Part shown: one piece after another, positions 1 to 11,355 of the stretch
How positions within the stretch are numbered: the stretch's first letter is position 1
How the letters are laid out: each line of letters begins with the position of its first letter
Origin: Halothiobacillus neapolitanus c2
GTDB taxonomy: Bacteria; Pseudomonadota; Gammaproteobacteria; Halothiobacillales; Halothiobacillaceae
Length of the DNA: 64,000 bases
Direction of reading: 5' to 3'
NCBI RefSeq assembly: GCF_000024765.1
Contig: NC_013422.1
Coordinates: forward strand, 1,631,501-1,695,500
The notes under the pieces: generated by a model
The model's input: the letters and a program-made list of their open reading frames with translations, nothing else
What the model was told of the DNA's origin: nothing
Databases searched by the model: none
Position numbers and translations under genes: made by a program

Positions 1-440
1 TAGCAATCAAAATCAATCGCCATGGAAATACCGAAGGCTAATCGAGCCCGCATCCCGGATGAGTAACTTTTTACCGGCTCTCGGAAAAAACGGCCCAGTT
101 CAGCAAAGTCTTCGACAAAAGGGCGTTTTTTTCGGTAATCCTCACCATAGATTCGGCAGATGAACTTCAGGTTATCAAGCCCCGTCAAGCTACCTTGAAA
201 ACCACCACCGAAGCCTAGCGGCCAAGATATCCGCATATCTTTATCTGCATGAATATAACCCGATGTGGGCGCTTCCACCCCACCCAGCAGGCGAATAAGC
301 GTCGATTTGCCTGAGCCATTGCGCCCGAGAATACCCAAGCGATCACCCTTGGCAAGCGTGAAATCAACATCTTTTAACACGGTAAACCAGCCTTGACGGG
401 CAAGGTATTGTTTAGTGACAGAAGAGACAACGATACTCAT
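1..440 (-). CDS. kpsT: Capsule export ABC transporter ATPase KpsT (3' end cut by window edge)
   Basis: This is the cytoplasmic ATPase that powers capsular polysaccharide export with the KpsM permease. The first 146 codons are visible from an ATG at 440; the rest lies outside the window. The sequence shows a Walker A loop (GRNGSGKST, about residues 39-47), a Q-loop region and an ABC signature near the cut ([15 protein letters not shown]). The Walker B is not visible. The start overlaps the stop of kpsM by an ATGA junction, which indicates translational coupling. The YSSGM form of the signature and the capsule neighbours favour KpsT/BexA/CtrD. A Wzt-type O-antigen ATPase is the main alternative, but those usually carry a C-terminal sugar-binding domain that cannot be checked here. 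Confidence 0.9.
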
Positions 441-1225
441 GGCGCGAGGTACTGCCGTGTTGTTTTCATCATGGCAAGGCCCAGCAGGGTGAGCCCCGCA
501 TCCCATCCCAAAAGATACATGGGATCGTAATAGGTGGGCACAGCATCTCCAAACATGCCATGGCGCAGCATTTCCACGCCGTGGACCATCGGGATCCAAA
601 GTAATAATTCGCGGATGGCCGGCGGCATCCAATCGAGCATAAAAAAGGTGCCGGAGAGAAACATCAAAGGCATGCTCATAATGCCCCAGATGCGACCCAC
701 CAATTCGTGCCGTTCGCTGGCCGCGCCAAGAACCAACCCCAAACCAAAGCCGAACCAAAGCAATAGCAGCCACGCCGTGATCATTCGCAGCACGTCATCC
801 GGTGCCGGGGATAAGCCGGTAACAATAAACACGATCATCAGCAGAATAAACGCGGCGGTAACCCCGACAAATTCCAAAAGCACGCGGGTAATATAAATAT
901 CAATCATCTTAATGTGGCGGTGGTACAGCAAAGCCGAATTCGCGCTCAACGCGCGTTGGCACTGATTGGCCGAATTTCGCCATAACATCAACGAAGAGTA
1001 ACCGGTGGCAGCAAAAGCCTCGATCGATATGTTTCCACGCTCATGCATGCCCGACATATACCAGAACGTGGAGATGGAGATGACAAACAACGCCGGTTCG
1101 AACACCAGCCAGAGCACACCAAAATTATTGCGCCCGAACCGGGTGATCATCTCGCGCAGCATCATGGCGTGGATGACTCGGAACTGGATGGCAAAGGATT
1201 GCTTAAATGTCGTGGTCGATTTCAT
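437..1225 (-). CDS. kpsM: Capsule export ABC transporter permease KpsM
   Basis: Inner-membrane permease of the ABC-2 type that moves lipid-linked capsular polysaccharide across the cytoplasmic membrane together with KpsT. It has 262 residues, close to the usual length of KpsM/BexB/CtrC. The N-terminal amphipathic stretch ([18 protein letters not shown]) is typical of ABC-2 polysaccharide exporters. About six hydrophobic segments follow, with a GxxFxLDWMPP-like loop near residue 195. The gene is followed directly by kpsT (4-base overlap). It is separated from kpsE upstream by 145 bases that hold a REP-like hairpin repeat, so the operon may be partly interrupted there. The family call is secure; the exact capsule type cannot be read from the sequence. 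Confidence 0.9.
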
Positions 1226-1240
1226 GATCCACCAAATTGA

Positions 1241-1344
1241 AGCTCGAAAAACTTGTCATTCCCGCGTAGGCGGGAATCCAGCGCCTTGATTTTTCTGGGT
1301 TCCCGCTTTCGCGGGAACGACGAATCACGGTATTTCGAGGTGCC
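1241..1344. repeat. REP-like double hairpin repeat between kpsE and kpsM
   Basis: Two hairpins lie side by side: ATTCCCGCGTAGGCGGGAAT at 1258-1277 and GTTCCCGCTTTCGCGGGAAC at 1299-1318. They are flanked by imperfect inverted ends, AGCTCGAAAAAC at 1241-1252 and its partner near TTTCGAGGTGCC at 1333-1344. The CATTCCCGC-type hairpin resembles dispersed intergenic repeats known in many proteobacteria. The outer ends resemble the ends of the 142-bp element at 35292-35433, so the two may be related. It lies inside the capsule operon and could attenuate transcription of kpsM and kpsT. Confidence 0.65.
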
Positions 1345-1370
1345 CCAAAGTGCGCGAAAAAAAGTACTCA

Positions 1371-2480
1371 TTACTCGATGTGCTCACGAATACCGGCCGT
1401 CAGCAATTCAACAATCCCCCAGATAATCAGGCCCAGCAGGAAAGTTGCCAGCACGATTTGCAGGCGATGCGGCAAAAAGGCTTCATCCGGCAAATTGGGT
1501 GCTGAAATGCGCTCAAGATAGAGTTGTTTTTTTCGGGCGTCTGCATTGGCTTGCTCCAGCGAGGCTAGTGCACTGCCCAGTTGTTGTTCGGCTAGGCTGT
1601 TTTCGAGGGTGAGACGCTGGTACTCGATCATTTTGGTGGCGATAGAACCACCGGACAAACCGGCTACTTTGTTTTCCAGTCGCTCAATTTCATTCTTTAG
1701 CAGTGTCTCTTCTCTTTTCAGCACGGGTATTTGCGGACTATTGCCACTAACTACCACCAACTGAGCCAATTGGCTGCGCACATCGAGCAACTTGCCTTGC
1801 AGTGTGCCAATCATCGTGAGCGGTAATTCCGCCTCTTTTTGCGGATCAAGTAACCCGGATTCATTGCGGAATTGCGCCAGTTTCGAGGCGGACTCGCGCG
1901 CCTGTTCTTTTGCTTTATCTACTTGATTGACTGAAAAAGAAATCGTGTCTCGTCGAGCACGGTCATTGAGTTGGTTAACCAGCTCCTCACTGTAACTAAT
2001 CAAAGAGCGGTTGATGGTTTGCGCTTCATCTGCCTTGAATGCCTTAACGGAAATAGTGAGCACCGAGCTCATCGGATCGACCGACACGCCTAGCTGCTTG
2101 ACGAAGTATTTGTAGAAGTTCGCCAGGCTGCCATCCAGCCCGAAACCATTGAAACGGCTGATTGGATCCACATTTTTGGAGGAATACCAGTTTATAACAG
2201 GGTATTGCTTGATCAAGCGATCGACGGCCGCGTGAGAGACCACATAGTTTTGTATTACATAGGCATCCGATTGCGAGTTGGAAAACCCAAAGCCTTGAAA
2301 CAATCCCGATAAACTGGCGCTGGAAATACTGGATTTATCGGCACTGCGAACCACGACTTGTGACTCGGACACATAAATATTCGAGGCAACGAGCCCGTAA
2401 TAAGCAGAAACGATTAATGTCGGGATCAGTACGAAAATCCAAAAGAAAACGTTCTTGAACAGCTTAAGAATGGAGGACAC
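1371..2480 (-). CDS. kpsE: Capsule export inner-membrane protein KpsE-like
   Basis: Member of the polysaccharide co-polymerase family (KpsE/BexC/CtrB) that links the KpsMT transporter to the outer-membrane channel. The 369 residues show a membrane segment near the N-terminus (about 12-32), a periplasmic region with long heptad-rich helices (about 175-320), and a second membrane segment near the C-terminus (about 340-360). This is the classic two-TM Wzz-fold topology. The start is a GTG at 2480 with an AAGGA ribosome-binding site seven bases upstream. It lies 17 bases after the AONS-like gene and is part of the same operon. No KpsD/Wza outer-membrane partner is in the window, so it must lie elsewhere. 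Confidence 0.85.
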   Translation of the reverse strand: MSSILKLFKNVFFWIFVLIPTLIVSAYYGLVASNIYVSESQVVVRSADKSSISSASLSGLFQGFGFSNSQSDAYVIQNYVVSHAAVDRLIKQYPVINWYSSKNVDPISRFNGFGLDGSLANFYKYFVKQLGVSVDPMSSVLTISVKAFKADEAQTINRSLISYSEELVNQLNDRARRDTISFSVNQVDKAKEQARESASKLAQFRNESGLLDPQKEAELPLTMIGTLQGKLLDVRSQLAQLVVVSGNSPQIPVLKREETLLKNEIERLENKVAGLSGGSIATKMIEYQRLTLENSLAEQQLGSALASLEQANADARKKQLYLERISAPNLPDEAFLPHRLQIVLATFLLGLIIWGIVELLTAGIREHIE

Positions 2481-2497: not shown

Positions 2498-3835
2498 TTA
2501 TTTGAGCGAATCAAGCTGCGCCAATGCTTGATCGATGTGCTTGGTTTGATGACTGCAACTAATAAAAAAACGCAAACGTGCCGCACGCTCCTCGACCGCA
2601 GGGTAAATGATCGGCTGGGCATTGATACCCTGTTCCAAAAGGCTGATCGACAGTTTAACCGCTTTTAGCGAGTTTCCTAAAACCACGGGGACAACGGAAT
2701 AGCCCATGCTCAAACCCGTGTTGAAACTGTAGGCACGAGCCTGCTCCAAAAAATACCGACCGTTGGTATGCAATGAACTGACCCGTTCTGGTTCAGTCCT
2801 CAATATATTTAACGCCGCCAGCGATGCTGCCGCCACAGGCGGCGCCATGCCCACGCTGTAGACAAACCCTGGCGCACTGTAACGCAATTGCTCAATCAGC
2901 GCGGTGCTCCCTGCAATGTAGCCACCGCAGCCAGCCAGCGCTTTGCTCAAAGTGCCCATCCAGATATCTACAGCTTTTGCAGGCACGTTGGCGTGTTCGC
3001 GCAACCCTAAACCCGTGGCACCCAATACGCCGAATGAGTGCGCTTCATCAACCATGAGTAAAGCGCCGAACTGATTTTTTATCCGCACCAGTTCGGGTAA
3101 ATCTGGCGCATCCCCATCCATGCTGTAGATGCCTTCCACCACGATTAAAACGCGCTCAAAACGATCGCGCTGTTCGATGAGTAATCGCTCCAGCGCCTCG
3201 GTATCGTTATGCGGGAAGCTGCGCCGGGTAGCACCGGAAAGCTGCGCACCGACCAGGGCGCTGTTGTGAATCAGGGCATCGTGCACAATCAGGTCTTTAG
3301 CGCCAAACAGATGCCCGATGACCGAGACATTGGTGGCATGGCCGCTTACGAACACCAGCGCGTCATCCACTTGGTACGTTTCGGCCAGTGCGCGCTCCAA
3401 CTCTCGATGAATCGGTCGCTCACCCGAGACGATGCGGCTGGCCGATACCGAGGTGCCGTAGGTGCCGATGGCCTCGATGGCGGCTTGCTGCACGCGGGGG
3501 TCGCTGCTTAAGCCTAAGTAATCGTAGCTGGAGAAGTTAATGCACTCTTTGCCATTGATCACAGTGGTGGCACCCGCTGTGCCTTCATGCAGGCCAAAAA
3601 ATGGGTTTTCTGCACCGAGCAACTTGGCGGCATCGCGCAGCATTTTTTGCTGCTTGTAGCCTTCGAACTGTTCAAATTGGGTGTAGCTTGACGGGTATTT
3701 TTTAGCTGCGGGCAATACAGCTCTGTTCGATTGCCCGCCGTTGGTTTTGGGCGTGAGGAAACGCTTAATCAGCGCCGCTTTGCTGGGCTTTTCCTTGTTG
3801 GGCGCATCAGGGGGTGTTGTGTCATATCCATTCAT
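2498..3835 (-). CDS. AONS-family PLP acyltransferase, RkpG-like
   Basis: PLP-dependent alpha-oxoamine synthase fold (BioF/KBL/HemA/serine palmitoyltransferase superfamily), which condenses an amino acid with an acyl thioester and releases CO2. The 445-residue chain has an N-terminal extension of about 60 residues beyond BioF. It carries the PLP aspartate motif DEAHSFG (263-269) and the Schiff-base lysine in GTLSKALAGCGG (Lys298). Its start overlaps the stop of the large PKS gene by ATGA, so the two are almost certainly made together. By analogy with RkpG of Sinorhizobium, and with fungal PKS plus AONS pairs, it probably releases the polyketide or fatty acyl chain by condensing it with an amino acid. 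A biotin role (BioF) is unlikely given the context and the extension. The substrate is not known. Confidence 0.8.
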   Translation of the reverse strand: MNGYDTTPPDAPNKEKPSKAALIKRFLTPKTNGGQSNRAVLPAAKKYPSSYTQFEQFEGYKQQKMLRDAAKLLGAENPFFGLHEGTAGATTVINGKECINFSSYDYLGLSSDPRVQQAAIEAIGTYGTSVSASRIVSGERPIHRELERALAETYQVDDALVFVSGHATNVSVIGHLFGAKDLIVHDALIHNSALVGAQLSGATRRSFPHNDTEALERLLIEQRDRFERVLIVVEGIYSMDGDAPDLPELVRIKNQFGALLMVDEAHSFGVLGATGLGLREHANVPAKAVDIWMGTLSKALAGCGGYIAGSTALIEQLRYSAPGFVYSVGMAPPVAAASLAALNILRTEPERVSSLHTNGRYFLEQARAYSFNTGLSMGYSVVPVVLGNSLKAVKLSISLLEQGINAQPIIYPAVEERAARLRFFISCSHQTKHIDQALAQLDSLK

Positions 3836-6800
3836 GGCTTAATCAATTCCTTGAGCGCGGATTGTTCATCAATGCTTAGGCCATCGGAATGCTGTTGCAC
3901 CAGATGGTTCAAGCGCTGGGCTTCTTGCTTTGCGGGTTCGTCTTCTTCGCTGGTGGCGTGCAGCATACTCAAAAGCCGCTCCGCCAGGCGAGTCACGGTG
4001 GGGCCTTCATTCAGCGCCATCGCCGAAAGCCGAATACCCACGCGCTTTTCAATGCCCAAGGCCAGTTCAACGGCCATGAGCGAATCAAGACCCATGTCAA
4101 AAAGTGAGCGTTGGGTGTCGATTTTCGTGACCGATAAATTCAGCACCTGCGCGACTTCTTCGGCAATCACGGTCGAAAGCTGGCTTAAGGCTTCATCGGA
4201 GCTGAGGGTTTTGAGCTTCTCGATGAGTTGATCTTCTTCCAGCACCTCAGCGCGCCCGCCTTCGGCAGTTAAATAGGCAAAACGATTGAGGCTATGCGTC
4301 GGCAAGATGCGTTGCAGCGCGGTGCCGCTCAAACTCATCACAGCTAACCCGCTCTCGCCGCTACGCAGGCAGCGCGCCAATACATCCAAGGCTTGAGCGG
4401 TAGTAATGGCCTGCCCGCCGGTGCGCGCTTCCAAACTATCCAGCACTTGCTGGTGCTCGGTTAAATACCCCGCATCGCCAATGGGGCCCCACAGCAACGC
4501 GGTGCCGGGCAGCCCTTGGCTACGCCGCGTTCGTATCAGTGCTTCCATCGCGGCATTGGCGGCCACATAGTTGGCTTGCCCCGCATTACCCAGCATGGTG
4601 GTGACGGATGAATACAGTACGAAAAAATCCAGCGACTGCGTGCGTGTAGCCTGATGCAGATGCCAAGCACCAGCGACTTTGGGCGTAATTACGCGCGCCA
4701 TGCGCTCGGCATTGAGGTTTTGCATTAAAGCATCGTCCAGCACCATAGCGGCATGGATCACGCCGCGCAGCGGATAGGCCGAGGCGGACTTGTCGGCATA
4801 CTGAGCGCACAGGTTTTTCACCGCTTCGGCATCACCCACATCCAGCGCCACCACCTCAATCCGTGATTGCAGGGCACCCAACTGTTTGAGTTTTTCGGCG
4901 AGGTCTGGGGTATTCACGCCACGCCGTGCCGCTAGAATAACTTTACCCGCGCCGTGTTGCAGTAACCAGCGCGCGGTTTCAAAACCAAAGCCGGTCAGCC
5001 CGCCGGTCACCAAATAACTCGCATGGGCCTTGGCCTGCCAGCTTGCGGGAATGGGCGGCACAATGGTTTGTGGTGCGGTGGATAAATCGACCACCAGCTT
5101 ACCGATGTGCTTGGCTTGTTGCATATTGCGAAAGGCATCCACCACGCGCTCGGCGCTAAAACGCTGATACGGCAAGGGATGTAACACACCCTCGTCGAAT
5201 AAGGCCATCACGGCGCGAAACACCTCGGCGGTGAGCTCAGGGCGTGCCGCCATCAATTGATCGGCATCAATACCAAAATAGCTAATGTTGTCTTTGAACG
5301 GGCGCAACCCCATTGGGGTATTGGCATAAAAATCGCGCTTACCCAATTCCAAAAACCGACCAAAGGGGCGCAACACATCCAGATTGCGCTCGATGGCTTC
5401 GCCCGCCAAGGAGTTAAGCACAACATCCACGCCCTGCCCATGCGTATCGGCCATGATTTGATCGGCAAAACTCAGATCACGCGAGCTGTAAATATGAGTC
5501 ACACCCATCAGCCGCAGAAAATCGCGCTTCTCTTCGCTGCCCGCCGTGGCGTAAACCTCGGCGCCCAGATGCTGCGCCAGTTGAATCGCGGCGATACCCA
5601 CACCGCCCGCACCGCCGTGAATCAGCACCCGCTCACCCGCGCGCAATCGGGCCATTTCTACCAGCGCGTAATACACAGTGAAAAACACCGTCGGAACCGT
5701 CGCCGCCTGTGCAAACGACCAGTGTTCCGGCATGCGCCCCACCGCATTGCCACGCGTCATGACATGACTGGCAAAGCATTGCGGCCCAAAGCCCAATACG
5801 GCATCGCCCGCCGCGACATGATCGACCTTTGCGCCCACGCGGGTGATGATCCCCGCGCATTCCAGCCCCAAGCTCGCGCCCGAAAAGCCGTTTTCGACTG
5901 CTTCATCACCCAGCAAGCCCATGGCAAACATCACATCGCGGAAGTTAAGGCCGACAGCCTGCACCTTGAGCTCAACGTCTTCATCGCCAAGCACGGGTTC
6001 TGCCACCGATTGCCATTGCAAATTGCGCAATTGGCCGGGGGAATCGAATGTGAGGGCGTAGCGATTCAGCGAGGCATCACCCGATAAGCTGGGCTCGTCC
6101 GCTGCCGGAACCACGCGCAAACTTTGCACGCGTCCTGCTTCAAGAACCAGTTCACGCTCCTCGGCCGGTGTGCTTAAAAGTCCGTGTAGCTCAGTGCGCA
6201 GCCATTGATCTTTTGCATCGCCGCGTGGGTCAATCAGGTACAAATTCAACGCCGGATATTCATTCATCGCCACCCGCGCCATGCCCCACAGCGCGGCATT
6301 AACGGGTTGTTCACGGGCATCGGAATCACTGGCCAAAGATCCAAAGGGCAGCAAGATAAAAATTGGCTGTGTACTTTCTTGGCGCGAGAGAATTTGCAGC
6401 TGTTCAAGCAGGTGATTGGTGGCATGTAGCGGGGTGGCTGCCAAATCTTCCATGGGTGAGAGAATGCCACCGAGCAGGATGACGGGGCATTCAGATGCTG
6501 GCGTGTCGTCCGAGGCCGGTTCAAATACCGCCGTAAGATCAAGCTGATCGATAAGATCGGCACCCGTCGAGTTCAATGCGACAAATTGCGCCAACGGCTT
6601 GGCTGACATTGCAGGCTGGTTTGCGGCGCTGGTTTGATCTTCATCCGCACAAGCCGATGGAATAGAGTAGATATGCAGCGCAGCGCCCGAATGCGTTTCG
6701 TCATCGGGTTCATGCCAACAATGTGTTGTTTGCGGCGCATGCTGGGCAAACCGCGCCATGTGCTCATCGGCAACACGATGCGAATGCCATTGAGCCAAGG

Positions 6801-9800
6801 CCTCACCGCCTGCGGCAAGCCCATCGAGAAATGCCGCATAGGTGGATGACTCTGGCTGCGCGATGACGCGCAAGCCGCCGGCTGCCGCTTTGGTCAGCGC
6901 GTCAACATCTAAAGCGGGATCAAGGCTGGCTTTGCCTTTGAGCCAGAGCAGGTCAAATGCGCCCAGCGAACCGTCTGCGAGCTGTTGCTGGCCCTGTAGC
7001 CAGGGCAGCAGTTTTAAATGCTGCGGATCGTGGGCAACCCAGGTTGAAAAAGCTTCGCTATTGGGCGATGTGGTGAAAACCGTCACGCCGAGTATCGGGA
7101 AATAGGCGCGCAAAACTTGGGTAAATTGATGCGGATCGCTGTGTTCATCGCCCACCAGCAACACGCGCAGGCGACGCACCCCCGCTTGCGCCAGCCCCTG
7201 CCCAAGCTGCGTGCAGAACGCATCGCGTAGCCCGCGTTGTCCTTGGGCGGCCAGCCCATCAACCTGCCATTGGGCGAACAAGGCACTGTGCTCTGCGATC
7301 GCTTGCGCATCCGCCGCATTCGCTTGCCCACAGAATCGCTGCTTGAGGTGCGCGCCCCAGCGGGCGGTCAGGGTCGCCTCGGCATTGGCTTCGGGGTAGT
7401 CTTGATTGAGCATCGTCCAGATGTCACCGCTCGACGGCGGCGCATCGAGCAGGCGGTGCGGTGTGGTTGCGGCATCCACATATTCTTGCGCGATCAGCTC
7501 GCTGAGTACACCGTGATACAGTGCCGAATCACCGGCGATATCTTCAGGCAAATGGCCTTGCGCATCGGCAAGCTCAGCCACTGATTCATAAGCGCAAGAA
7601 ATGGCCAGCGCATCCAGCAAGGGGCGAATTTCGCTGAAATAACATGCGCGGCTGGACGAACCGGCAAGCGCCGGTTGATCAGCAACCAATGAAGGCCAAT
7701 GATCCGCTAATTGAAAACCGTTTGTTTTACTCGGTAGATCAAACACTTGAGTTTGCCATAACTGCGGCGCAGCGTTGGCCGCCGCAAAATGCGCCGCCTT
7801 GAAGCGGCAGTCGCGCAATTCGGCGATGAGCCGCCCATCCGCGTGATACAACGAGAAATCCGCCACCACCGAATGCGCCGATACGCGCTTGATTCGTCCG
7901 CGAAAGCCAGTGGGCTGCACGCCAGACTGCACCACCACAAGACGCCCCACCTGTACCGGTAAATAGCTTTGCCGCGTGGCCGAACCCACCGCCCCAGTGT
8001 GTGATAGCAAGGACTGAAAACACAGATCCAGCATCGCGGGATGCAGATGGTGCGCTCGATCCTCGGTAACCACCGTTGGCAGAGCCAGTTCTCCGCGAAT
8101 CTGGTTACCCGCAACGGTTAACTGACCAATACCACGAAAACTCGCCCCATAATCCAGCCCAAGCGCCTTGGCGGTTTGGTAATGGGTGGCGGCATCAATG
8201 ACGCGGGCATCGGCGGGCATATCCATTGAGATAGGCTGAGTGATTTGATCGAAGGGTAAATCATCGGCGATGGCACGCAATTGCCCAATCGCATGTTCCG
8301 TCCAGTCATCATCACTCAAGCGGCGGCGGCTTTGGATGGAAAAGCGCTGATCGTGGCCGAAAATACGCGTGCGCAGCGTACGGCTCTGCCTGGCTTCAAA
8401 CACCAACGGATGCAGAATACTCAACGCTCGTACTTCTGTTTTCGCCCAGCGCAAACCCAGATCGGCGGCGGCAAGCGCCAGTTCAAGATACGCCGCGCCC
8501 GGAAAGACAACCGAGCCATCGACGCGATGATCGTTGAGGTACGGCACCCGGTCGGCATCAAGGATATTTTCCCAAGCCAGTGGCGCATCTTTGAGCGGAT
8601 AACCCAACAGCGGATGCACATTAGCACGATAAATCAGGTTGTAGCCTTCGTTGGTTTCTTGTGCCCAATAACGCTGGCGCTGCCAAGGGTATTTGGGCAG
8701 ATCGACCACAGTGCGTTTTTTTTGCACCACGGAAGCATCAACGCCACGATGCAAACGAATCCGCAACTCGGCTTCTTGAATATCCAGCAAAGTATCAGCA
8801 TTTTTGCGTGCCAACGTGACCACTTGAACATTTTGCACGCCCTTTTCTTGCGCGCATTGGCTGATGTAGCGCGGCAAAATGGCATGCGGGCTAATCTCGA
8901 CAAACTGGGTGAAACCCTCGGTCAATAAATGCTCGATGGCCGGCGCAAATTGCACCGGTTCGCGCACATTGCGCCACCAATAATGCGCATTCAAGGATTC
9001 ACCCGCATGCGGCAAACCGGTCACGGTTGACACAAAACCCCTTCCCGCCTGTGGGCTCAAAGCCGCGAGATTGACATTAATCTCATCGGCAATCGGTGCC
9101 ATGGCTTCGCTATGGAAGGCGTAATCCAAATCCAATACGCGCGAGAAAATGCCAGCCTGCTCAAGGTGCGCATTCAAGGCGAGCAAGGAGGGCTCATCCC
9201 CCGACAAGGTTAAGGAATTGGGCGCATTGAACCCGGCAATCGTGCAGGATTCAGGCAGAATATCCAGTTGCGCTAGGGTGGAACTCAAGGCATCAGCCGT
9301 TAGCGCCGTGGCCAGCATGCGGCCACTGCCTGCAGTTTTGGCTTGCGCTTGACTGCGCACCGCAACCACCGTGATGGCATCCGCCAAGGACAGGCAACCC
9401 GCCGCCCAAGCCGCCGCAATCTCGCCCACACTATGACCTGCGTAGGCCTCGGCGGTAATGCCTTGCGCCTGCAACCACTCGGTATAGGCCACTTGCAAGG
9501 CGAATAACAAGGGCTGAGCCACGGCGGTATCGTTTAACCGACTCCGCTCTGGCTTTGCCTTCAACTCGGCGAGCAGCGAAAAGCCGATCAAGGGTTGCAT
9601 CTGCCGATCCAACTTGCGCAGCACACGGGCAAAACTCGGGGACTCGCGCAGTAGCGCCATCCCCATGCCCTGCCACTGCGCGCCGTTGCCGCCATACACA
9701 AACGCACAACGGCGTGGCGCAATAGCCGATGGCGCAGTGGGCACTTCGTGCAGCACTGCACCGCGCGGTAACTCATCGCCCTCACTTAGCTCGGCGATTT

Positions 9801-11355
9801 GACGCAAACGCTGCACGATCTCCGCCACCGACACGCCAACAACTCCCAAACGCAGCGGCATCCACTCTCGTTGAGTGGCGGCGGCCTGCGCCACGCTCGC
9901 GTAGTGCTCGGGATTTGCCGCAATCAAATCAGCATATGCGCACGCCAAGGCATTCAACGCGGGGCGATCCTTGGCGCTAAACATCAGCGCGGGTAGCGAC
10001 TGGGATGGTTTGCCTGGTTTGGTAGCAACCATTGGCGCAGATTCGATAATCACATGCGCATTGGTGCCGCCAAAACCAAACGAATTGACGGCAGCATACG
10101 CGGGACGATCTTGCACCCGCAAAGCCGTTGGCTGGCGCACGATTTCAATGTGATGTTTGTCCAAAGCCAACTTGGGATTCAACACGCTCGAATGGATCGA
10201 AGGCGGAATTTCACGATGCTGCAAACTCAACACGGCTTTAATCAGCCCCGCCATACCCGAAGCGGGTTCCATATGACCAATATTGGACTTTATCGAGCCG
10301 ACAAGCAGCCGGTTCGCATCGGAACGCCCCGCGCCATAAACCCGGCCAATGGCTTCGATTTCAATCGGATCACCGACCGACGTGCCGGTGCCGTGGGCTT
10401 CCAGATAATCGACATCGGTTGGGCTTACCCCTGATTTGGCCAACACCTGCTGCAATAAACGGGCTTGCCCTTCGGCGCTGGGGATGGTGATACCGGTTTT
10501 GCTGCCGCCATCGGAATTTGTGCCTGTGGCACGAATCACTGCATGGATGCGATCCTCATCGCGTTGCGCGGCGTGCAGGGGTTTAAGCAATAACACCGCC
10601 CCGCCTTCGGCGCGCACATAGCCATTGGCATCGGCGCTAAAGGATTTGGATCGTCCATCGGCCGACAACATGGACGCATGCGAAAACCCAACAAACGGAT
10701 AGGGATGCGCCAGTAAATTCGCCCCGCCCACCAAGGCGGTTTCACTCTCGCCCCGGCGGATCGACTCGCAAGCCATGTGCAAGGCCACCAATGAAGAGGA
10801 GCACGCCGTATCAATCGACAAGCTTGGGCCATGTAAATCATAGACATAAGATAGTCGATTAGCCGCGATACTCAGCGTGCCACCGAGCATGGAATAGGCA
10901 TTCATCGAGGCCAAATCATCCACCGTGCGCGTGCCGTATTCGGTCGAGGAAATACCGACAAACACCCCGCAAGCAGACCCCGCATAGGCAGACGGCGTGC
11001 TACCCGCATCTTCAAAGGCATGCCAGGCCAACTCGAGCAGCAAACGGTGCTGCGGGTCGATCTTTAAGGCCTCACGCGGCGAAATACCAAAAAAAGCCGG
11101 ATCAAAATCGCCAATATTCTCGACGACGCCCGCCTTGAAGGTAACGCTCCGCCCCGGCTCATCACGGCGATCATGCTGGTGAAATTGCGTATCAAACCGA
11201 TCGGCAGGCACCTCGGTCACAAGATCACGCCCGGCCAAAAGTGCATCCCACAACTGCGTTTGATCTGAAAGATTGCCGGGGAGCCGATGCGCAATACCGA
11301 CAATGGCAATGGGCGAACTATTTTTGACGCGATGAGGAGCAGTGTGTTTTTTCAT
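3832..11355 (-). CDS. Highly reducing iterative type I polyketide/fatty acid synthase, RkpA-like
   Basis: A single 2507-residue module. KS is at about 14-440 (catalytic Cys185 in DTACSSS, His321 in EAHGTGT, His361 in NIGHMEP). AT is at about 550-850 (GHSVGE with Ser642; YAFHS motif suggesting malonyl use). DH is at about 910-1190 (His943 in an HxxxGxxxxP motif). A non-canonical region of about 1300-1720 looks like a degenerate methyltransferase plus the structural half of the KR. ER is at about 1765-2105 (HGGAGGVG near 1913). KR is at about 2112-2350 (VTGG at 2116, Ser/Tyr in YSS and NYVAAN). ACP is at about 2385-2465 (GLDSL, Ser2425). There is no thioesterase. The order KS-AT-DH-ER-KR-ACP predicts a fully reduced acyl chain. 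Length, order and pairing with an AONS enzyme match RkpA of Sinorhizobium K-antigen loci. Location next to kpsEMT suggests it makes a lipid carrier or anchor for the capsule. Confidence 0.88.

Follow-up and report, generated by a model that had tools for sequence, protein, structure and literature searches.

A polyketide synthase and an oxoamine synthase encoded with a capsule exporter in Halothiobacillus neapolitanus as candidate enzymes for a sphingoid capsule anchor

A gene for a polyketide synthase (PKS) without a release domain and a gene for a pyridoxal phosphate (PLP)-dependent alpha-oxoamine synthase (AONS) stand in one operon with capsule exporter genes in Halothiobacillus neapolitanus c2, of a genus of environmental sulfur oxidisers. 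What lipid does this pair make, and does the capsule use it? The pair lies in a stretch of 64,000 nucleotides (hereafter the window; G000:C1:1631501-1695500), G000 being the window genome, a single contig of 2,582,886 bases. The pair itself is a further member of the known RkpA/G and WcbR/T family. To our knowledge, the lipid product of RkpA/RkpG and WcbR/WcbT and its need for the capsule have been open questions since these genes were found. The sequences of the window and of its relatives suggest that the 3-deoxy-D-manno-octulosonic acid (Kdo) linker of the capsule is built on a sphingoid lipid derived from the PKS, which would mimic lyso-phosphatidylglycerol, and we put the probability of this reading at roughly 0.64.

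The PKS/AONS pair and its operon

The operon runs on the minus strand in the order PKS, AONS, KpsE, KpsM, KpsT and, left of the window, a KpsC-like gene. The PKS (3832..11355, minus strand; 2507 aa) is an iterative type I enzyme of the RkpA/WcbR/SgaA type with the domain order KS-AT-DH-(degenerate MT)-ER-KR-ACP and no thioesterase, and the AONS (2498..3835, minus strand; 445 aa) is an enzyme of the RkpG/WcbT/SgaB type, proposed to condense serine with acyl-ACP. The stop and start codons of the two genes overlap by 4 bp (ATGA, 3832..3835, minus strand), which is typical of co-translation. This overlap recurs in 34 of the 73 pairs in the survey described below, and the spacing lies between -10 and +25 bp in 60 of the 73. 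KpsE (1371..2480, minus strand), an inner-membrane export protein of the BexC/CtrB/KpsE type, matches TIGR01010 with an E value of 2.6e-101, below the curated cut-off, and KpsM (437..1225, minus strand), the ABC-2 permease of the capsule exporter, matches NF050053, likewise below the curated cut-off. KpsT is represented by its 5' part (1..440, minus strand, ATG at 440), the remainder of which lies left of the window (L008 19266-19940; Pfam ABC_tran), as do the KpsC-like gene (L008 17084-19243; PF05159) and, by it, glycosyltransferase genes. An earlier reading of this stretch (the original prediction) had described a thioesterase-less reducing PKS of 2507 aa that is translationally coupled to an AONS and followed by kpsE, kpsM and kpsT, and this description is confirmed by the open reading frames (ORFs), the Pfam matches and the overlap.

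The ABC-transporter capsule set of KpsM, KpsT, KpsE and KpsD is present in the window genome, and so are both Kdo-linker enzymes, KpsC and KpsS, the latter matching NF050054 below the cut-off. The original prediction had proposed an anchor unlike the phosphatidylglycerol-Kdo anchor of E. coli. A Kdo-less anchor is rejected as stated, given the presence of KpsS and KpsC, so that the Kdo linker is probably kept and the lipid beneath it is probably the sole difference. The order PKS-AONS-KpsE-KpsM-KpsT is also found in the sister Halothiobacillus genomes G006, G007 and G008. A gene for a GDP-mannose enzyme is inserted between AONS and KpsE in G006 and G007, an ORF of equal size occupies this position in G008, and KpsE is present as two ORFs in G006. 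The KpsC-like frames of these three sisters encode 357-367 aa with one module, and that of the window genome encodes 720 aa with two modules.

The Pfam domains of the PKS are KS, AT, DH, ER (ADH_N/ADH_zinc_N), KR and ACP, and no Pfam match to a thioesterase is obtained in it at E<=0.001. When the window PKS is aligned with 66 full-length PKSs of the survey (67 sequences), 13 of the 14 active-site or specificity positions examined are identical in 67/67, and the remaining one, located in the nucleotide loop of the ER, is Gly or Ala. The phosphopantetheine serine of the ACP, S2425 (codon at 4081..4083, minus strand, computed from the residue number), is invariant in 67/67. It is followed by 82 residues in the window PKS and by 67-104 residues in the 66 survey PKSs, and a release domain therefore cannot fit behind the ACP. 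The AT motif is YAFH, which we take to be malonyl-specific. A stretch of about 600 aa between DH and ER (residues 1188-1785; 6001..7794, minus strand), absent from the earlier description, is recognised as a methyltransferase domain in the PKSs of Nitrosomonas (L069) and Burkholderia lata (L112), and gives no Pfam match even at E<1 in the window PKS or in that of Pseudomonas L090. A linear chain is therefore expected from the window PKS, in which this region seems decayed. Since the C-methyltransferase is recognisable in Nitrosomonas and Burkholderia lata, chain branching may differ among species. The window genome also encodes a second reducing PKS of 2134 aa, with an AMP-ligase (L009 11089-19082; G000:1027089-1035082). 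A KS-like protein and a TauD dioxygenase are encoded near it, and no kps genes are labelled in L009.

In the AONS, K298 (the PLP-binding lysine; codon at 2942..2944, minus strand, computed from the residue number), D263, H266 and H190 are invariant. The best NCBIfam matches are the bioF and serine palmitoyltransferase (SPT)/KBL models, all under their cut-offs. The nearest solved relatives are SPTs of Sphingobacterium (E 5e-61), with other oxoamine synthases close behind. A structure model of the AONS (pLDDT 86.4) matches SPT 3a2b with a Z score of 50.1 and an rmsd of 1.8 over 387 residues, and others with a Z score of 49. Identity to the AONS of Sinorhizobium meliloti pSymB is 49%, and identity to E. 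coli Spt is 34%. The single reducing module of the PKS, the 49% identity of the AONS and the location in an ABC-transporter capsule locus uphold the assignment of the pair to RkpA/RkpG; the names RkpA-RkpG-RkpH-RkpI-RkpJ and WcbR/WcbT are those of the S. meliloti rkp and Burkholderia wcb genes. rkpA and rkpG are reportedly needed for capsule production in S. meliloti. In an AONS tree, the 92 capsule-type rows need two changes, and because long branches meet there the tree is not used as evidence. A role of the AONS in biotin synthesis was considered and rejected, since the window genome has one other, separate AONS paralogue (36% identical; L050, at 2.21 Mb), presumed to be BioF, and the AONS sits among PKS and kps genes.

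Two arrangements of related AONS genes were noted on the side. A gene for an LpxC-like deacetylase separates PKS from AONS in 8 of the 80 survey loci, all of Burkholderiaceae (L106, L112, L114, L120, L121, L128, L131 and L136). In genome G118 (L231 5428-9820), an epimerase-type short-chain dehydrogenase/reductase (SDR) gene adjoins a gene for an acyl-AMP ligase-ACP-AONS fusion, which, with its ligase and ACP parts read from the sequence, is a non-PKS feeding route for the same enzyme family.

In the proposed pathway, the PKS would load malonyl units and assemble on its ACP a long acyl chain that is fully reduced. The AONS would release this chain by condensing it, with decarboxylation, with an amino acid (probably L-serine) to give a 3-ketosphinganine-type base. 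A reductase would convert this base to the sphingoid alcohol, to which, in many relatives, an RkpI-type transferase would add phosphoglycerol, giving a single-chain lipid that resembles lyso-phosphatidylglycerol. KpsS would start the Kdo linker on the sphingoid lipid, KpsC would extend it, glycosyltransferases would build the polymer, and KpsMT-E-D would export the product. We infer the use of serine by the window AONS, the order of these steps and the role of the lipid as capsule acceptor. The chemistry of release was shown in 2025 in Pseudomonas fluorescens strain MYb115, where sgaAB is a two-gene PKS/oxoamine-synthase unit that makes C24-28 sphinganines, which are lost in sgaA and sgaB mutants, and where PfSgaB is an SPT with a near-exclusive preference for L-serine (PMC12134224). 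The earlier proposal that the AONS releases the chain with an amino acid thus agrees with a characterised enzyme. The same strain also has phosphoglycerol-sphingolipids, and its SDR SgaC is proposed to be the ketosphinganine reductase (PMC12134224). The lipid on which E. coli KpsS places Kdo is (lyso)phosphatidylglycerol (PMC10148158), and a phosphoglycerol-sphinganine, which resembles it, is therefore a plausible acceptor for KpsS.

Recurrence of the pair with capsule and head-group genes

Genome contigs were scanned with a profile of the AONS alignment, and the best 80 of 586 loci by similarity to the query, which are not a random sample, were read with flanks of 10 kb; both flanks are complete in 54 of the 80 loci and not in the other 26. 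A PKS gene lies beside the AONS gene in 78/80 loci. An SDR resembling ketosphinganine reductase (KDSR-like) is found in 33/80, an LTAS-like protein in 36/80, KpsE in 22/80 and KpsM in 21/80. Because the iterated HMMs were grown from survey sequences, they were cross-checked with seeds from outside the survey, which give the same counts for these families. The iterated HMM search also finds KpsS in 20, KpsC in 12 and KpsD in 19 of the 80 loci. Among 20 control regions, nine of them around another oxoamine synthase, one KDSR-like and one KpsT-like match are seen, and no KpsE, KpsM, KpsD, KpsS, KpsC or LTAS-like gene. The SDR and LTAS-like genes lie within 300 bp of each other in 26 of the 29 survey loci with both, and the SDR gene is adjacent to KpsS in 12 of the 14 loci with both. 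An amino-ketone, the end product originally proposed, is probably not the final lipid, given the reductase gene within 10 kb of the pair in the 33 loci.

KpsE, KpsM, KpsD, KpsS or KpsC is encoded inside 10 kb in 27 of the 54 full-flank loci. Among the 27 without such a gene there, all but L114 and L121 were followed up, and PF05159, the family of KpsS and KpsC, is present in 24 of these 25 genomes. Twenty follow-up regions were read, all of them with sequence in common with their survey loci (L252 overlaps L101), and after this follow-up kps genes are found nearby on the same contig in 47/54 full-flank loci. KpsC-KpsS-SDR-LTAS-PKS(-AONS) forms a single run in 12/12 halomonad-type loci read, which are ten of Halomonas, Vreelandella and Salinicola and two of other gammaproteobacteria (L074 and L075, not named halomonads), and KpsS-SDR-LTAS-PKS(-LpxC-like-AONS) forms a single run in 6/6 Burkholderiaceae loci read. 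The Bordetella and Achromobacter regions (L252 and L253; 2/2) hold KpsS, KpsC, KpsD, KpsE, KpsT and KpsM, and in L101 the distance to the AONS is roughly 10 kb. The order in Pseudomonas (L029, L118 and L090) is PKS-AONS-(PhyH)-KpsC-GNAT-LTAS-SDR-KpsS. Between the AONS and the SDR that follows it, L029 has four genes, L118 three ORFs and L090 five labelled ORFs, two of them pieces of KpsC. The locus-tag spacing of PKS, AONS and SDR in L029 equals that of sgaA, sgaB and sgaC. The pair is carried by Halomonas, Pseudomonas, Salinicola, Marinobacterium, Thiothrix and others, and the gammaproteobacterial setting mentioned in the original prediction is therefore not special. A Halomonas paper already names WcbR beside KpsC, KpsD and KpsS (PMC10752968).

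The RkpI-type protein is annotated as a member of the LTA synthase family or of the alkaline phosphatase family. The fold closest to a model of this LTAS-like protein from L118 (pLDDT 88.0) is that of the phosphoglycerol transferase GacH (Z 29.0 and 27.6), followed by LtaP and LtaS (Z 24.5 and 23.4) and a Vibrio protein of the alkaline phosphatase superfamily (23.5). Lower matches are sulfatases (best Z 21.3) and the phosphoethanolamine transferases EptA (19.8) and MCR-1 (19.1). E248, T290, D472 and H473, which we take to be catalytic from the roles of their counterparts in LtaS, are invariant in 21 aligned rows. We propose from this model that RkpI of the relatives is a candidate phosphoglycerol transferase. 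The GacH-like fold fits the phosphoglycerol-sphingolipids of MYb115, and the lipid of these relatives is therefore predicted to be a phosphoglycerol-sphinganine.

The two gene sets were also compared among 16 chosen relatives, namely all 10 of the genus, four others with the pair and two without it, an AONS orthologue being called at E<=1e-110. PF05159 is present in G000, G004, G006, G007, G008, G012, G013 and G016, and the AONS orthologue in G000, G006, G007, G008, G012, G013, G016 and G030. Thus, both are present in seven, neither in seven and one alone in two (G004 and G030), and because the genomes are related these are not 16 independent trials. It is unlikely that the two systems are merely housed together, the sphingolipid being a free outer-membrane or signalling lipid and the capsule being built on ordinary phosphatidylglycerol-Kdo. 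This explanation agrees with the extractable free sphinganines and phosphoglycerol-sphingolipids of MYb115, which act on the nematode host, and the main text of that report contains no capsul, rkp or wcb (PMC12134224). It also agrees with the spt-acp-epi-ligase cluster of E. coli BL21, which adjoins genes annotated as lptF and lptG, so that sphingolipid genes can sit apart from kps, and with the capsule of Porphyromonas gingivalis, which is lowered and not abolished without sphingolipids, as an indirect membrane effect would predict (PMC5126122). It leaves unexplained, however, why KpsC and KpsS lie in the SDR-LTAS-PKS run of all halomonad-type loci read, why KpsS lies in that of all Burkholderiaceae loci read, and why AONS and PF05159 are co-distributed in the relatives.

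The exporter bears on the fate of the lipid. KpsM has a match in 8tsh, a capsule permease of known structure (E 4.3e-19), and retains the residues that align with Arg35, Trp45 and Arg89 of solved KpsM; Gln takes the place of Arg94. The Arg35- and Trp45-aligned residues are each kept in 27 of 29 KpsM rows, the window and the solved reference being counted. Arg94 lies near the lipid phosphate in the solved KpsMT transporter (PMC11041684). Position 94 is Arg in the sisters G006, G007 and G008 and Gln in 9/29 rows, and it is not a clean marker of phosphate loss, because Gln is also found in L067, which has an LTAS-like gene. The original prediction allowed a capsule carrier or anchor, and gene context is the support for such a role. 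It is very improbable that the lipid only carries the polymer during synthesis, as undecaprenol does, or decorates it as an acyl group, and is taken off either before export or afterwards: in the solved KpsMT system, lipid and Kdo are bound together (PMC11041684), and the two residues conserved in 27/29 rows argue in the same direction. An older proposal of a "special lipid", reportedly made for the S. meliloti K antigen, would favour such a carrier role.

The KpsS cluster of the window genome

KpsS of the window genome is encoded in a second cluster about 22-30 kb left of the window (L048, genome 1601806-1609193), in the order KpsD, FemAB-like (PF04339), epimerase-type SDR, KpsS, P450 and LpxL-like acyltransferase. 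The corresponding cluster of the sisters G008 and G006 is (KpsD)-KpsC-KpsS-KDSR-LTAS-P450-LpxL-like, KpsD being seen in G008 only. In the sister G004, at a contig edge, the end of an epimerase-type SDR is followed by KpsS-P450-LpxL-like. The window-genome P450 is 70% identical to that of G008 and 94% to that of G004, the LpxL-like protein 50% and 84%, respectively, and KpsD 52% to that of G008. KpsS is 33% identical to that of G008, 79% to that of G004 and 41% to that of S. meliloti, and this divergence fits a block exchange and does not track the presence of LTAS. The G+C content of L048 shows a mild dip only. The epimerase-type SDR is 25% identical to E. coli epi over 206 positions (E 2e-14) and 35% identical over 184 aa to the AONS-linked SDR of G118, levels that are generic within the SDR superfamily. 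In Halomonas urumqiensis (L066), P450 and LpxL-like genes lie beside the AONS, and this provides an independent tie of the KpsS cluster of the window genome to the same lipid.

Because the SDR and phosphoglycerol-transferase genes beside KpsS are replaced, the anchor head is probably different in the window species, perhaps ceramide-like. The simplest reading of these gene orders is that the head-group enzymes have been exchanged around KpsS, with another reductase and perhaps N-acylation instead of phosphoglycerol. It is a guess that the FemAB-like protein is the N-acyltransferase for the anchor. It is possible, though less likely than not, that capsule lipid anchors exist in exchangeable sphingolipid forms. 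Many relatives would use a PKS-made phosphoglycerol-sphinganine as the Kdo acceptor, and in the window species and G004 the KpsS block would have been swapped (KpsS with an epimerase-type reductase and, in the window species, a FemAB-like N-acyltransferase), giving a ceramide-like anchor free of phosphate. The P450 and LpxL-like genes at the flank would have stayed in both, and KpsD in the window species.

Several observations weigh against the proposed role of the PKS-derived lipid as the Kdo acceptor or against parts of it. The tie between this lipid and the capsule anchor is a prediction from gene context, and E. coli group 2 capsules need no PKS/AONS lipid genes. The top NCBIfam score of the AONS is that of bioF and not of SPT, and its fold is not proof of the use of serine, because SPT ties with other oxoamine synthases (Z 50.1 vs 49). 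The layout of MYb115 is deduced from L029, L118 and L090, and the match to SgaA and SgaB is one of annotation and gene order. No LTAS-like match is obtained in the window genome at E<=1e-10; G006, G007, G008, G012 and G016 have one each. The window genome has no kps-linked KDSR-type SDR, the best match (E 3.4e-46) lying at 2.02 Mb. The FemAB-like protein gives no significant BLAST alignment with YghO, the candidate ceramide N-acyltransferase of E. coli, and is present in only 1/57 relatives. Since LtaS-type enzymes work on the periplasmic side of the inner membrane, and KpsS and KpsC on the cytoplasmic side, the phosphoglycerol lipid would have to flip back inward. No kps gene is found within the stretches read of L098, L099, L105, L129 and L130, and G397, the genome of L129, has no PF05159 anywhere; in the genome of L098, KpsD, KpsE, KpsS, KpsC, an LTAS-like protein and an SDR are encoded together on another contig. 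A class sample of 369 genomes, less biased than the survey and with short flanks for some (G330, G118), contains the AONS at E<=1e-110 in 11 genomes. PKS lies beside AONS in 9 of these 11 (not in G030 and G118), and KpsS or KpsC lies in the stretches read in only 6 (G000, G012, G016, G100, G105 and G388). A KDSR-like SDR or LTAS-like protein is encoded in 9/11, and an epimerase-type SDR in the remaining two (G000 and G118). The second AONS copies of G030 (C19) and G313 (C10) have no PKS, SDR or LTAS partner in view.

It is improbable that the AONS, perhaps only in species without the phosphoglycerol transferase such as that of the window, uses glycine or alanine, in which case the product would have no C1 hydroxyl and an aminoketone or 1-deoxy base would be joined to the capsule otherwise. 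In favour of this reading, neither fold nor family scores tell SPT from KBL/AONS, and the window genome is without the LTAS-like enzyme that would need the C1 hydroxyl. The window AONS is, however, 49-73% identical to orthologues from genomes or loci with an LTAS-like gene, and PfSgaB, which has been characterised from a PKS/oxoamine-synthase pair, accepts almost only L-serine (PMC12134224).

Known systems and neighbouring features

The S. meliloti rkp and Burkholderia wcb loci share with the window genome the PKS/AONS pair and the kps neighbourhood, and the order on pSymB of S. meliloti Ak57 (L031) is KpsD / PKS-AONS-SDR-LTAS-KpsS / KpsF. Unlike them, the window genome has no SDR and RkpI-type gene by KpsS, and has the epimerase-type SDR and FemAB-like genes there. 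SgaA and SgaB of MYb115 are likewise an iterative PKS and an oxoamine synthase in a two-gene unit, with SgaC spaced as the SDR is in the Pseudomonas capsule locus L029. The window genome lacks a kps-linked KDSR-type SDR. SgaABC is described as a secondary-metabolite cluster, with capsule unmentioned in the main text, and 6,101 homologous PKS sphingolipid clusters are reported, mostly from Burkholderia (PMC12134224). The E. coli group 2 capsule system has relatives of KpsM, KpsT, KpsE, KpsD, KpsC and KpsS in the window genome, which differs by its dedicated lipid-making PKS/AONS. The canonical ceramide pathway of Caulobacter and E. coli BL21 (Spt, AcpR, AasR, CerR/epi, bCerS/aca) was considered and set aside: the AONS is related to E. 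coli Spt and KpsS is paired with an epimerase-type SDR, whereas the acyl chain would come from the PKS and not from AcpR/AasR, and no counterpart of bCerS/aca is found, the FemAB-like protein not aligning with YghO.

Deletion of the stand-alone SPT of P. gingivalis, which makes dihydroceramides without a PKS, lowers and does not abolish its K-antigen capsule, and the authors speculate on sphingolipid anchoring; no gene linkage to Kdo transferases is shown, and the words polyketide and Kdo have 0 occurrences in that paper (PMC5126122). The swf PKS of sponge symbionts is likewise mono-modular (KS-AT-DH-ER-KR-ACP), and membership of the window pair in that family is rejected on account of the different partners described, the operon being swfA, swfB (reductase and sulphotransferase) and swfC (radical SAM), with no wcb or rkp neighbours in that description (PMC3908369).

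Thus, sphingolipid anchoring of a surface polysaccharide has already been voiced, as speculation, for P. gingivalis (PMC5126122). The apparent novelty lies in linking the Kdo-capsule pathway to that of PKS-sphingolipids, in naming a candidate enzyme for every step, and in the proposed exchange of head groups in Halothiobacillus. Among the papers listed in a literature search, none ties a PKS-made lipid, or rkp, wcb or sga, to a capsule anchor, which is weak evidence of absence as most subscription journals and all preprints lay outside the search; a search on Halothiobacillus likewise listed no paper on this subject. If the proposal holds, capsule genes and polyketide-sphingolipid genes, studied separately, would belong to one pathway. 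The SgaAB chemistry would give a concrete answer for RkpA/G, a sphingolipid mimic of lyso-phosphatidylglycerol under the Kdo linker, with RkpI as the missing phosphoglycerol transferase. The PKS sphingolipid clusters now viewed as secondary metabolism would gain a physiological role, and sphingolipids are predicted in many proteobacteria that are not known to make them.

Some further features were noted. Genes of the LptF/LptG family, which may encode an exporter dedicated to sphingolipids, lie beside sphingolipid-type genes in E. coli BL21 (L183 29282-37066) and in G030 (L045 16575-19998). Left of the window, L008 4218-14510 (G000:1616218-1626510) encodes CysD, CysN, CysC, a CysQ-like phosphatase and a CitMHS/sulfate-type permease, and these genes adjoin one for a protein with sulfotransferase and GT61 domains. 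The capsule is probably sulfated. No Rfam match is obtained across the window at the gathering threshold. The gap between kpsE and kpsM (window 1226-1370) contains a GC-rich palindromic repeat with matches at 1255, 1261 and 1300 (up to two mismatches). This repeat is also found in L008, L048, L155 and L156 of the window genome, and it looks like a dispersed element of the REP/MITE type inside the operon.

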